A stretch of 64,000 bases of DNA from Salarchaeum japonicum (GTDB lineage Archaea; Halobacteriota; Halobacteria; Halobacteriales; Halobacteriaceae), in assembly GCF_020614395.1 (NCBI RefSeq), contig NZ_CP085324.1:62001-126000 (forward strand), written 5' to 3'. Under the pieces are notes generated by a model. The model was not told the DNA's origin and made no database searches. It saw only the letters and a program-made list of their open reading frames with translations. Positions 1,337 to 6,616 of the stretch are shown one piece after another. The position numbers and the translations under genes are program-made. Positions within the stretch are counted from its first letter, which is position 1. Every line of letters starts with the position of its first letter.

Positions 1337-4333
1337 ATGACTCACCGAAGTGGGCGAGCCGCCGTACTCGCCCTCGCCGCGATGCTCGTCGTCGCCCCCA
1401 TCGCGACGAGCATCGCCGCGCAGAGCGCGGCCGCGGCGACCGGCGACACCGACCCGGTCGTGAAGTTCGCGTACGTCGATAGCAGTTCGGGGAACGTTAC
1501 GCTCGCGACGGCGTCCGGCGACACGATAGACATGGGCGTGAGCGCGGAAATCGTCGGTCGCGCCGCGAACCTCGACGACGACTACTACGTCGAGGTTCCG
1601 TACGTCAACGAGAACAACGAACTCCGCGCCATCGACCGCACCGGCGAGGACGTGTTGCTCGCCGACCAGGCGAAGAAGTCGAAGACCAAGGTCGCCGTCG
1701 GTGACTTCGACGGCGACGGCACGAACTCCGTCTACTACGCGAGGGAGACGTCCACGAGCGGCGGGGACTTCCTGATGCGCGTGAACTATTCGAGCGCCGG
1801 GTCGCCCCAGTTCGTCACCGACGACTTCGAAGTCGAGGCCGCGGTGGGCGTCGGGAACTTCTCGGCCGACGCGGGCGACGAACTCGCGTTGGTCGGGCAG
1901 GCGTCCGGCCAGGTGATGGTGTGGGACGGCTCCAGTTCGACCCGCCTGAGCGATAAGAACCCCTCGAACCCCGGCGCAATCGGCGCACCCCGAGACTTCG
2001 ACGGGGACGGCACGGCGAGCGTGCCGATAGTGGACGGGAGCGGGAACGTGCGGTTGCTGTACGCGAACGGAACCTCCGAGAGCATCCACGCGGGCGCGAA
2101 GAAAGACCCAATCGCGGCGGTGGACTGGGCCGGAGACGCGACGCCCGAACTCCTCTACCTCCAGTCGAACTCGCCAGCGAACCTCGCGTACACGTACCTG
2201 AACGGTACCGCGGACACCGTGACGCTCGACGGGAGCGAAGTCAATCCCGCGCTCGGCGCGGGCGTCGCGGCCGCCGCGGACACCGACGAACCCCTCGAAT
2301 TCTCGAACTTCTCCGTGACGAACGAGTCGAACAGTCTACGGGTGTCGTTCGACGCGACCGAAGACCTCCAGTCGGTCTCGGTGACCGTCTCGGGGCCGGA
2401 CGGCACCGACCTGTCGCTCTCGGACTTCGACGAGGTGTCGTTGAGCGGTGACTACACGTACGTCGCGAACTACACGCCGGTCGCGGACGGGACGTACGAG
2501 GGGACGCTCGAATCCGGGACGGCGATGGACGGCGACGCGGCGAGTCCTGGCGTGACGGACAGCGCGACGATCGACCGGATGTTCGACGTGACGAACCTGA
2601 ACGCGACCGCCGCGCCCGGCCAGGACGTGAACGTCTCGTTCGAGGCGACCGACGCGCTCGACTCGCTGACGCTCACCGTTGACGGCGCGGAGAACGCGAC
2701 CCTCGACCTCGACAATTTCTCGACGAGCGATTCGAGCGCGCCCTACGTCTACAACGGCACGTACGACGGGAGCAGTGACGGGAACTACACCGTGACGTTC
2801 GACTCCGCGACCTCGCCCGAGGGGACGGACGACGACGACCTCGTGGACGAGGTGACTATCGACCAGGTGTTCCGGACGTGGAACTTCACGCTCGCGAACG
2901 AGTCCGGGAAGCTCGGCGTGTCGTTCGAGGCGGACGAGCGGTTGAGCGCGACCACCGTCGATATCACGGGGCCGTCGAACCGCACGCTCGGCGTGGACGA
3001 CTTCTCGGTGAGCGACACGGACGACGGCTACCGGTACGGGACGGCGTACGTTCCGGACGCGAACGGCGAGTACAACGGCACGCTCGCGTCCGCGACCTCG
3101 CTCGACGGACAGGAGACGAGTCCCGGGTACGAGGACAACGCCACCATCGACCGCGGATTCACGGTCTGGAACCTCACGCTGAACACGACCGCGGACGGCG
3201 ACCTCCGGTTCGGGTTCAACTCGACCGCGGGCGTGGAGAGCGCGTCGCTCGGCCTCTCGGGCGCGGAGAACGAGACCCTCGACAGGAGCGACCTCGACGA
3301 AATCTCGTCCAGCGACCCCTACCGGTACGAGGGGACGCACGCGGTGGCGACGGACGGGAACTACACGCTCGCGCTCGACTCGGCGTCCACGGGGGTGAAC
3401 ACGTTCGACGGGACGCTCACGGCGAACGCGACGCGGAACCAGACCGGCGTCGCGCTGGTGAACGCGACCCTGCGTGACGCGACGAACGCCGACGGTATCG
3501 TGAACGCCTCCGACGCGGTGACCATCACCGCGAACGCGACGGGTGACGTGGGGAGCGTGACCGCGGACGCGTCCGCGTTCGGCGCGGGCACGGTCGAACT
3601 CACGCACGCGAGCGGCGACACGTACACCGCGACCGTGGGCGTCGATGCGGACGACACCGCCGGGAACGAGACCGCCACCGTCACCGCCCGCGACGGCCAG
3701 GGCGCGGTCGCGACCGACACCTCGGGCGACATCCTGCTCGACGCGGTCGCCCCGACCGTCGCCGTCGGCGCGAACCGCACCGTCGATGTCGGGGAGTCCG
3801 TGACGTTCGCGCCGGACACCGCGAGCGACGACGCGTCCGGCGTCGCCGACTACACGTGGAACCTCGGCCCCGCGGTCGCGGACAACCGCACGACCACGTA
3901 CGCCTACGAGACCGCCGGAACGTACACGGTCAGCCTCGCGGTCACCGACGACGCCGGGAACACCGAAACCGCCGCCCTCACCGTGACCGTCACCGCCGAC
4001 ACCACCACGGACACGCCCACGGAGACGACCACCACGGAGACGGCGACCGACGAATCCACCACGACGACGGCGACCGCGACAACGACCACGACCACGGTGA
4101 CGACGACGGACGGCGCGCCGGCTGCGACGGCGGACGACACGACCACCACGACCGCCGCGACGACGACCGCCGCGACGGCAACGACGACGACCACGACGGC
4201 TGCCGCCACGTCCACGACCGACACCGACCCGAACGCGACGAGCACGGAATCCACGGCGAGCGTGCCCGGGTTCGGCGTCGTCGTCGCAGTCCTCGCGCTC
4301 CTCGGCGTCGCGCTGCTCGCGCGCCGCGACTGA
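1337..4333 (+). CDS. PGF-CTERM surface protein with FG-GAP-like, four-repeat and PKD regions
   Basis: Predicted exported cell-surface protein of 998 residues. A signal peptide covers about residues 1-35. Residues 35-310 contain DFDGDG motifs typical of FG-GAP/VCBS propeller repeats. Residues about 320-695 hold four tandem Ig-like units of roughly 95-100 residues, recognisable by the pattern VSFxA...GxY.GTL..AT..D. Then comes a Big-like region and a PKD-type domain (ending YAYETAGTYTVSLAVTDDAGN). A Thr-rich spacer (about 880-960) precedes the C-terminal PGFG motif, a hydrophobic helix and RRD: a PGF-CTERM signal for archaeosortase processing and lipid attachment. N-x-S/T sequons are very abundant, so heavy N-glycosylation is likely. 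The ligand or partner is unknown. A long antisense reading frame over the Thr tract is a GC artefact. Confidence 0.88.
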   Translation: MTHRSGRAAVLALAAMLVVAPIATSIAAQSAAAATGDTDPVVKFAYVDSSSGNVTLATASGDTIDMGVSAEIVGRAANLDDDYYVEVPYVNENNELRAIDRTGEDVLLADQAKKSKTKVAVGDFDGDGTNSVYYARETSTSGGDFLMRVNYSSAGSPQFVTDDFEVEAAVGVGNFSADAGDELALVGQASGQVMVWDGSSSTRLSDKNPSNPGAIGAPRDFDGDGTASVPIVDGSGNVRLLYANGTSESIHAGAKKDPIAAVDWAGDATPELLYLQSNSPANLAYTYLNGTADTVTLDGSEVNPALGAGVAAAADTDEPLEFSNFSVTNESNSLRVSFDATEDLQSVSVTVSGPDGTDLSLSDFDEVSLSGDYTYVANYTPVADGTYEGTLESGTAMDGDAASPGVTDSATIDRMFDVTNLNATAAPGQDVNVSFEATDALDSLTLTVDGAENATLDLDNFSTSDSSAPYVYNGTYDGSSDGNYTVTFDSATSPEGTDDDDLVDEVTIDQVFRTWNFTLANESGKLGVSFEADERLSATTVDITGPSNRTLGVDDFSVSDTDDGYRYGTAYVPDANGEYNGTLASATSLDGQETSPGYEDNATIDRGFTVWNLTLNTTADGDLRFGFNSTAGVESASLGLSGAENETLDRSDLDEISSSDPYRYEGTHAVATDGNYTLALDSASTGVNTFDGTLTANATRNQTGVALVNATLRDATNADGIVNASDAVTITANATGDVGSVTADASAFGAGTVELTHASGDTYTATVGVDADDTAGNETATVTARDGQGAVATDTSGDILLDAVAPTVAVGANRTVDVGESVTFAPDTASDDASGVADYTWNLGPAVADNRTTTYAYETAGTYTVSLAVTDDAGNTETAALTVTVTADTTTDTPTETTTTETATDESTTTTATATTTTTTVTTTDGAPAATADDTTTTTAATTTAATATTTTTTAAATSTTDTDPNATSTESTASVPGFGVVVAVLALLGVALLARRD

Positions 4334-4351
4334 CGCCGCGAACCCAACCGA

Positions 4352-4541
4352 CGTTTCGGTGGGCGCGGCGCTCACGTTCCACTTTTTCCACCCTCCCGCT
4401 GGTCGGGCGCAAAACCTGGAGGAAAAATCCCGGCGTTTCGGTGGGCGCGGCGCTCACGTTCCACTTTTTCCACCCTCCCGCTGGTCGGGCGCAAAACCTG
4501 GAGGAAAAATCCCGGCGTTTCGGTGGGCGCGGCGCTTACGT
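4352..4541. repeat. 82-bp exact tandem repeat, two copies plus a partial third
   Basis: Copies occupy 4352-4433 and 4434-4515 and I find no difference between them. A third copy starts at 4516 and matches for about 25 bp (to 4541) except for ctcacg becoming cttacg. Each unit contains a T run (actttttcc) and aggaaaaatccc. The period is not a multiple of three and no gene spans it. The altered base in the third copy lies in the TATA position of uvrB. Confidence 0.92.
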
Positions 4542-4542
4542 T
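4533..4542 (+). promoter_or_regulatory. TATA-like box of uvrB within the third repeat copy
   Basis: gcttacgttt is centred about 28 nt before the uvrB ATG, the usual leaderless distance here. The matching position in copies 1 and 2 reads gctcacgttc, so the promoter-like form exists only in the last copy. Confidence 0.4.
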
Positions 4543-4564
4543 TCTTCGTCCCCATGAATCGGTA

Positions 4565-6616
4565 ATGAGTGATTCCGAGGGTGCGTTGCAGCCGGACCGG
4601 CCGGACGCGGAGCAGCCGTTTCGGGTGGACGCGCCGTTCGACCCCGCGGGCGACCAGCCCGAGGCCATCGAGCAGTTGGCGGCGGGGTTCGAGAACGGCG
4701 TGGACAAGCAGACGCTGCTCGGGGTGACTGGGTCGGGGAAGACGAACACCGTCTCGTGGACTATCGAGGAGATTCAGAAGCCGACGCTGGTCATCGCGCA
4801 CAACAAGACGCTCGCCGCGCAGTTGTACGAGGAGTTCAAGAACCTCTTCCCGGATAATGCAGTAGAATACTTCGTCTCCTACTACGACTACTATCAGCCG
4901 GAGGCGTACGTCGAGCAGACGGACACGTACATCGACAAGGACGCGTCCGTGAACGAAGAGATCGACCGCTTGCGGCACTCCGCGACGCGGTCGCTTCTCA
5001 CGCGGGACGACGTCATCGTGGTGGCGTCCGTGTCCGCCATCTACGGGCTGGGCGACCCGTCGAACTACGTGGACATGAGCCTCGAACTCGCCCGCGGACA
5101 GGAGATAGACCGGGACGAACTCCTGGGGCGGCTCGTAGACCTCAACTACGAGCGCAACGACGTGGACTTCACGCAGGGCACGTTCAGGGTGCGCGGGGAC
5201 ACGGTCGAAATCTTCCCGATGTACGGTCGGTACGCCGTCCGCGTGGAGTTCTGGGGCGACGAAATCGACACGCTCCGCAAAATCGACCCGTTGGAGGGTG
5301 AGGTGCAGTCGGAGGAACCCGCGGTGCTCGTCCACCCGGCGGAGCACTACTCGATTCCCGAACAGCGTCTGGAGAACGCCGTCGAGCGCATTGAGTCGGA
5401 CATGGAAGACCGCGTCGAGTACTTCGAGCGGCAGGGCGACCTCCTCGCCGCCCAGCGCATCGAGGAGCGCACGACGTTCGACCTCGAAATGCTCCGGGAG
5501 GCCGGGTACTGCTCGGGCATCGAGAACTACACGCTCTACTTCTCCGACCGCGAGCAGGGCGACGCGCCCTACACCCTCCTCGACTACTTCCCCGACGACT
5601 TCCTCACGGTCATCGACGAGTCACACCGAACCGTCCCCCAAATCAAGGGCCAGCTCGCGGGCGACAAGTCCCGGAAGGAGAGCCTGGTCGAGAACGGCTT
5701 CCGCCTGCCGACGGCGTACGAGAACCGCCCCCTCTCCTTCGAGGAGTTCGAGGAGAAGACCGACCAGACGCTGTACGTGTCCGCGACGCCGAGCGACTAC
5801 GAGCGCGACGTGTCCGGGAACGTCGTGGAACAGATCGTCCGCCCGACCTACCTCGTCGACCCGAAGGTGGAGGTGTCGCCCGCGGACGGCCAGATAGAGG
5901 ACTTGATGGAGCGCATCCAGAACCGGGCGGAGCGCGACGAGCGCGTGCTCGTCACGACGCTCACGAAGCGCATGGCCGAAGACCTCACCGAGTACTTAGA
6001 GGAGGCCGGGGTGGCCGTGGAGTACATGCACGACGAGACGGACACGCTCGAACGGCACGAACTCGTCCGCGGCCTCCGACTGGGCGAGTTCGACGTGCTC
6101 GTGGGTATCAACCTCCTCCGGGAGGGATTGGACATCCCGGAGGTGTCGCTCGTGGGGATTCTGGACGCCGACCAGCAGGGGTTCCTGCGCTCGCGCACCA
6201 GCCTGATTCAGACGATGGGACGGGCCGCGCGGAACGTGAACGGCGAGGTCGTCCTGTACGCGGACGAGACGACGGACGCGATGGCGGACGCCATCGACGA
6301 AACCCAGCGCCGCCGGAGAATCCAGGAGGAGTTCAACGAGGAGCACGGCACGACCCCGACGACGATAGAGAAGGCGGTGTCGGAGACGAACCTCCCCGGC
6401 GCGAAGACCGACACGAGCGACGTGACCGGCGACGGCCCCGCCACCGAGGCGGAGGCACGGGAACGCATCGAGGTCCTGGAGGAGCGGATGCGGGAGGCCG
6501 CGGACAACCTCGAATTCGAACTCGCGGCGGACATCCGCGACCGCGTGCGCGACCTCCGGGAGGAGTGGGACTTCGAGACGAAGGACGCCGGCGTCGAACC
6601 CGAGGCGGACTGGTAG
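4565..6616 (+). CDS. uvrB: UvrABC system protein B
   Basis: Damage-recognition helicase of nucleotide excision repair: loads with UvrA, verifies the lesion and recruits UvrC. 683 residues, full length for the family. Walker A GVTGSGKT is at residues 53-60, the UvrB beta-hairpin with its aromatic cluster [14 protein letters not shown]-like segment at about 102-116, the DEAD-type motif VIDESH near 350, helicase motif VI in the segment QTMGRAARN near 555, and the C-terminal UVR motif (UvrC contact) at about 630-665. ATG 4565 is chosen because conserved sequence starts soon after it; the in-frame extension to 4523 runs into the upstream repeat. UvrC is encoded in the same window (15778-17514). 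Confidence 0.97.

Follow-up and report, generated by a model that had tools for sequence, protein, structure and literature searches.

Why an exact 82-bp tandem repeat stands directly before uvrB, and whether it bears on expression of that gene, is the question raised by this locus. It was addressed in the window (the whole 64-kb stretch of DNA analysed), in the rest of the genome to which the window belongs (G000; 2.34 Mb in two contigs), and in other haloarchaea.

Anatomy of the uvrB array

The array lies between the end of a 998-aa open reading frame (4333) and the uvrB start codon (ATG at 4565). At a shift of 82 bp the window matches itself in a single unbroken exact run of 103 bp (4352-4454 against 4434-4536), by far its longest exact direct repeat at shifts of 20-500; the longest outside the array is 17 bp. 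TRF delimits the repeat as 4348-4542, with period 82, 2.4 copies, 98% match, and a score of 376, the highest in the window. The first two copies (4352-4433 and 4434-4515) are the same at every position, and a partial third copy of 27 bp (4516-4542) has as its sole difference C to T at 4537, changing ctcacg to cttacg. The exact 82-bp repeat, the two identical copies, and the C/T difference in the last copy had all been reported in the first-pass annotation and are borne out here. The same annotation had the third copy break off at the start of uvrB transcription; its actual end is some 20 bp short of the likely start and 23 bp short of the ATG. Each unit consists of P, 27 bp of the uvrB promoter region, and E, a hairpin element of about 50 bp, and the features of the region are as follows.

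1337-4333, + strand: 998-aa open reading frame, putatively a secreted protein, having a Thr-rich stalk and a hydrophobic segment at its C-terminus; its stop codon lies 15 bp before the repeat
4352-4378, unstranded: P copy 1, duplicated uvrB promoter region, 27 bp, with the box changed to CTCACG (from the sequence)
4379-4427, unstranded: E copy 1, hairpin element CCACTTTTTCC...AAAACCTGGAGGAAAAA, with T5C at 4383-4388 (+) and 4422-4427 (-)
4434-4460, unstranded: P copy 2, a hybrid with left neighbour CCGG as in copy 3 and tail CTCACG as in copy 1 (from comparison of the copies)
4461-4509, unstranded: E copy 2, identical to E copy 1, with T5C at 4465-4470 (+) and 4504-4509 (-)
4516-4542, unstranded: P copy 3, the original uvrB promoter segment (from relatives and comparison of the copies)
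4535-4540, + strand: TATA-like box cttacg, its position kept in the family and its sequence in six of six genomes of genera g1 and g3
4565-6616, + strand: uvrB, 683 aa, probably leaderless or nearly so (from the open reading frame and the upstream regions of relatives)

The three P copies differ at their edges in an ordered way. Just left of the exact match, in a difference that the first-pass annotation had passed over, CCGA precedes copy 1 (4348-4351) and CCGG precedes copies 2 and 3, giving CCGA/CTCACG for copy 1, CCGG/CTCACG for the middle copy, and CCGG/CTTACG for copy 3. The middle P combines the head of copy 3 with the tail of copy 1, which fits one exchange between P and P' of an arrangement P-E-P', with the crossover inside the 21 bp that all three copies have in common. 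In such a history the starting point would be a lone E within the uvrB promoter region, bordered on either side by about 27 bp of promoter-region sequence (P-E-P'); P and P' would then have undergone a single unequal exchange or slippage event, yielding P-E-(P'/P)-E-P'. The rightmost P' would have retained the working box cttacg, and the P beside the upstream gene would have turned to ctcacg, the version carried into the middle copy. We infer this order of events, together with its first step, an insertion with a long target duplication.

The whole two-copy region folds no better than its shuffles (z 0.79), which argues against the array as a whole being a structured RNA. An Rfam scan of positions 4001-4900 gave no match at E-values up to 1, and the array region had no match in the plasmid collection. 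A CRISPR-like reading, with 31-bp repeats and spacers, was rejected because the supposed spacers are identical to each other and are the dispersed element described below.

Element E, its distribution and probable function

Further copies of the unit, which the first-pass annotation had thought worth seeking in the genome, occur only in part: the exact 82-bp unit is confined to the uvrB locus, and about 50 bp of it belong to a dispersed family. Apart from the uvrB locus, a search of the genome with positions 4300-4600 recovered a single partial match, covering about 50 bp of the unit, and a search with the E pattern, whose layout is CCAC(C)TTTTT-hairpin-AAAACCTGGAGGRAAAA, returned four matches at three places. 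The core of E (AAAACCTGGAGGAAAAA), allowing at most one mismatch, has 15 matches in this genome, four in a sister species of the same genus (G001), and five in a member of another genus (G025). One of the 15 (L060) matches with one mismatch and by eye is without the rest of E; it was excluded from the sites of this genome and from the 124-copy pattern used below. The remaining 14 matches make 13 sites, since uvrB has two, leaving 12 sites besides uvrB.

Of 391 genomes of the order, 32 have the exact core, every one of them a member of family f1 or f3; a reversed-pattern control gave no match. Related cores (AAAACGTGGGGAAAAA and similar) were found with a wider pattern in 33 of 125 genomes, the control giving one match in one genome, and most of the related-core loci looked at have the left end CCAC(C)TTTTT, then a hairpin, then the right core. 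In other families the ends of variant E (CCAC.TTTTTGC and GCAAAAACGTGG) are near inverted repeats; in the Salarchaeum lineage the two ends match each other poorly and are not clear inverted repeats. The core is identical letter for letter across unrelated loci and the letters of the hairpin vary, yet single hairpins fold better than shuffles (median z -3.3 over the 124 copies, 77% under -2), that at uvrB being among the weaker ones by eye. The notion that the hairpin is made anew by template switching at each duplication was rejected, as each end of E keeps a conserved sequence of its own across unrelated loci.

Two contexts of E were noticed in passing. In other haloarchaeal families, variant E stands by eye directly 3' of apparent tRNA 3' ends (L348, L356, L357, L360, and L362). 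At eight further loci (L043, L048, L055, L056, L057, L058, L059, and L061) long-class E immediately follows a stop codon, with TNC-TAR-CCCAC as the context, so that the neighbouring proteins by eye end in Tyr, Phe, or Cys.

The likeliest function of E is suggested by the signal T5C (T5, then C), which it carries on both strands. The uvrB array has two such sites per strand, all intergenic. Of the 124 copies, 74 have T5C on the + strand and 121 have it on the - strand, the latter figure being partly built into the search pattern; 247 control stretches held three matches over both strands. A passage of PMC7237163 describes a Haloferax volcanii reporter in which intergenic T5C ended 95% of transcripts. 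The terminators of that study resemble E in having T5 then C in intergenic DNA, and termination by them was demonstrated in H. volcanii; E differs from their description there in having the signal on both strands around a hairpin, a conserved core, and at some sites a further gene-end copy. A two-way terminator is accordingly the likeliest role for E by this signal, and at uvrB it would part the upstream gene from uvrB and halt antisense transcription. E probably stops transcription rather than tuning uvrB.

We consider it likely, though well short of certain, that the uvrB array is a dispersed haloarchaeal hairpin cassette, situated between local direct repeats and expanded by one step, with E most likely serving as a two-way terminator.

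Direct repeats around E and their origin

Both other places in this genome with the full E pattern are flanked by direct repeats, as at uvrB. At the end of a FUN14-like gene (C1:867156) E lies between two 42-bp copies that are 97.6% alike, and at the end of the Spt5 gene (C1:1777729) between two 96-bp copies that are 87.5% alike. Further flanked cases were seen in G025, in G007, and in Haloferax; two of the loci of G025 read the same as Halospeciosus flavus contigs.

The frequency of such flanking was assessed over 124 E copies, taken from L036-L061, L258-L337, and eight of the 26 haloarchaeal loci examined, among the matches listed (80 of at least 120 stretches, the haloarchaeal part). The sites fetched were 80 hand-chosen stretches, representing most of the listed core matches outside G000, G001, G007, and G025. 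Contexts that were duplicates and copies close to the end of a locus were removed, and a default boundary was used for the 13 copies with no recognisable left end. Flanking repeats scored at least 20 at 27 of the 124 copies; the remainder scored at most 12, with none between 12 and 20. The same geometry applied to 1500 random pairs gave a 99.9th percentile of 17.5 and a maximum of 22. This random-position null was used because an alternative, pairing the left flank of one site with the right flank of another, gave outliers up to 109 through the pairing of orthologous arrays.

The 27 flanked copies are not independent, representing about eight loci, with the polD arrays giving at least 13 of them: uvrB, the FUN14-like gene, Spt5, three further gene ends (G025/G007), Haloferax polD, and a Haloferax aminopeptidase gene, L271 standing outside this assignment. 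The repeats comprise about 20-96 bp of local DNA, usually the 3' end of the gene, and adjoin E, the left copy ending within a few bases of its left end in most cases. Flanking occurs exclusively in the short class (27 of the 56 E copies at most 56 bp long, against 0 of 68 longer ones), and longer-class E often lies by eye 3' of a stop codon. The right flank of unflanked copies folds better than that of flanked ones. As 97 of the 124 copies have no flanking repeats, the sandwich is not a fixed property of E. Variant E in other families was sandwiched or arrayed at seven of 26 loci examined, a count in which L225 was preselected for a copy already seen and L344 has no row, and which leaves out an eighth locus, L358, where the repeat does not abut E.

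Relatives have empty sites at some of these genes. In the sister species, the one other genome of the genus in the comparison, the FUN14-like and Spt5 genes each have just one gene end, with no E at either. In G025 both genes have E and a copied gene end with the same breakpoint in the gene as here, and by eye its gene-end copies are more like each other than like those of this genome. The shared breakpoint indicates that the FUN14 and Spt5 cases may be of long standing, with recombination maintaining their likeness, rather than recent insertions. At four loci of other haloarchaea (L210, L213, L215, and L216) a hairpin 3' of Spt5 is followed, by eye, by a second stretch like the Spt5 end (DSEER-stop), without the E core.

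In Haloferax the number of cassettes varies. At the aminopeptidase gene, eight of 15 species have neither E nor a gene-end copy, two (G368 and G170) have one of each, and one (G356) has three gene-end copies interspersed with E; by eye, two (G323 and G216) have E alone, one (G167) has a decayed E and a copy, and one (G394) has a remnant. In the array of G356 (L366), two E copies have by eye an extra hairpin nested inside E. At polD, nine species carry arrays of gene-end copy plus E with two or three E cores. Over its first 18 nt the copied piece averages 0.95 against the native piece of the same genome (n=9) and 0.58 against the copied pieces of other genomes (n=36), the exceptions being L258 (0.82 over the whole piece) and L291 (one unit at only 0.89 against the native piece). 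The evidence from the two genes indicates that the number of cassettes changes and that homogenisation takes place within genomes. In most species (L264, L277, L280, L284, L288, and L291) the copied polD gene end differs from the native one by T to C about 10 nt from E, at a place resembling that of the CTC/CTT difference at uvrB.

How E came by its flanking repeats can be read in two ways. The exactness of the sandwich, the empty sites, and the conserved core are all in keeping with an insertion that duplicated a long target. Local tandem duplication would need no mobile step: E would be a resident terminator, replication slippage at its hairpin would duplicate E with the adjoining DNA, and sites with two copies and one E would be arrays minus an outer E. 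This fits the Haloferax polD arrays better, which end in E or half an E with no further gene-end copy, and it agrees with the often old, vertically inherited state of E and with the concerted evolution of the copies. It is harder to reconcile with FUN14, Spt5, and uvrB, each of which has one flanking copy more than E and repeats abutting E on both sides, with a core conserved letter for letter among unrelated loci, and with the lack of any trace of E at the aminopeptidase gene in eight of 15 Haloferax species. We regard local duplication as possible and somewhat doubtful. Insertion leads to a wider proposal, which we advance tentatively: short elements with cores particular to each lineage may form a family spanning the haloarchaea and may integrate with long, variable target duplications by an undescribed mechanism, and selection may keep those whose duplication restores the interrupted gene end or promoter, so that the gene gains a two-way terminator along with a cassette whose later expansion, contraction, and homogenisation proceed by recombination.

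The promoter box, other explanations, and known systems

The first-pass annotation placed the uvrB promoter in the last copy, and comparison with relatives agrees: by eye, a box stands at a common position about 27-30 nt before the ATG in 26 genomes of the family. It reads, again by eye, cttacgt in all six genomes of g1 and g3 and ctcaagt, ctgaagt, gtaaatt, or gtaagtt in the remaining family genomes. A box centred about 27 nt before the ATG fits a leaderless uvrB transcript, and leaderless transcripts are common in haloarchaea. The difference at this box is as real as had been claimed, but its polarity is reversed; cttacg, common to the g1 and g3 relatives, is ancestral, and the upstream copies have lost the T (T to C), so that the last copy did not gain its TATA-like box by a C-to-T change.

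That the number of 82-bp units tunes uvrB expression by altering promoter spacing, as also put forward in the first-pass annotation, now appears very unlikely. The last copy does carry the conserved box, and such arrays do vary in copy number between species at other loci; however, the distance from box to ATG is independent of copy number, the sister species has the same promoter box with no repeat, and the unit carries terminator-like T5C and no recognised activator site. The uvrB flank of the sister species is rearranged, lacking the 998-aa open reading frame and having a short remnant-like stretch before uvrB, so the absence of E from it does not amount to a clean empty site; the two genomes differ before uvrB by a deletion or an insertion at that place. 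In the sister species (L004), a short stretch at about 1340-1470 that resembles the start of a secreted protein (compare the 998-aa open reading frame) runs directly into the uvrB promoter. The same locus holds at about 480-720 a tandem repeat of about 60 bp (tccgccgaacacgcgaacgggga...) in about four copies, by eye unlike E and placed a few hundred bases upstream of the genes preceding uvrB.

We also think it highly improbable that E is a MITE of an IS1634/IS1549-type transposon. The direct repeats of IS1549 and IS1634, given as 8 to 514 bp in the part of PMC2266710 that describes them, cover the range seen around E, and the likeness extends to long, variable-length direct repeats around an element, described there without a mechanistic model. 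Against this, E is about 50-80 bp long and codes for nothing, and no IS1634-family transposase rose above the cut-off in any of ten E-bearing genomes (no match in six, sub-threshold matches in four). That search, for IS1634-type transposases in those ten genomes, identified no enzyme that would move E. The ends of E in the Salarchaeum lineage are not clear inverted repeats, and in place of the fixed-length target site duplication by which MITEs are recognised the repeats are absent at 97 of 124 copies and about 20-96 bp long at 27. An assembly artefact is the least credible explanation of all, for although two polD arrays in draft assemblies contain N, a sign that such arrays assemble poorly, the uvrB array is only 195 bp long with no N in a two-contig genome, its copies differ in an ordered way (CCGA/CCGG, CTC/CTT), and like architecture is found in independent genomes.

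Searches of the open-licence literature, including one with the letters of the ends and core of E in which the 20 papers listed out of 713 were all unrelated, found no published description of it, a result that does not establish its absence from print. SPRITE, RUP, and BOX of Streptococcus pneumoniae are not known to be related to E in sequence. They resemble it as terminator-like, dispersed intergenic repeats, and differ in being bacterial and in that the relevant passages of PMC10969869 make no mention of arrays with gene-end copies. The PATEs, SMR-A, SMR-B, and MITEs of Haloquadratum walsbyi, as presented in the pertinent sections of PMC3119063, are like E short, non-coding, dispersed, and palindromic, and strains differ in whether they have them. 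Those sections describe PATEs and SMRs as making no target duplication, whereas E is flanked by about 20-96 bp at 27 of 124 copies; it is by this description that they are set apart from E. The repeat-mediated deletions of haloarchaea covered in the same source likewise involve recombination between short direct repeats, which would explain the loss of E to leave an empty site; that recombination is described there for deletion, whereas E cassettes also expand and homogenise.

The uvrB repeat is one case of a dispersed hairpin element in the Halobacteria and not a one-off promoter duplication. What seemed an isolated promoter repeat becomes an instance of a family-wide phenomenon of terminator-like hairpins with gene-end copies that are prone to form arrays, which would account for recurrent short tandem repeats at haloarchaeal gene boundaries. 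Such cassettes offer natural systems for measuring short-repeat recombination in polyploid archaea, and they pose the testable question of how a 50-bp element gains flanking repeats of up to about 100 bp.
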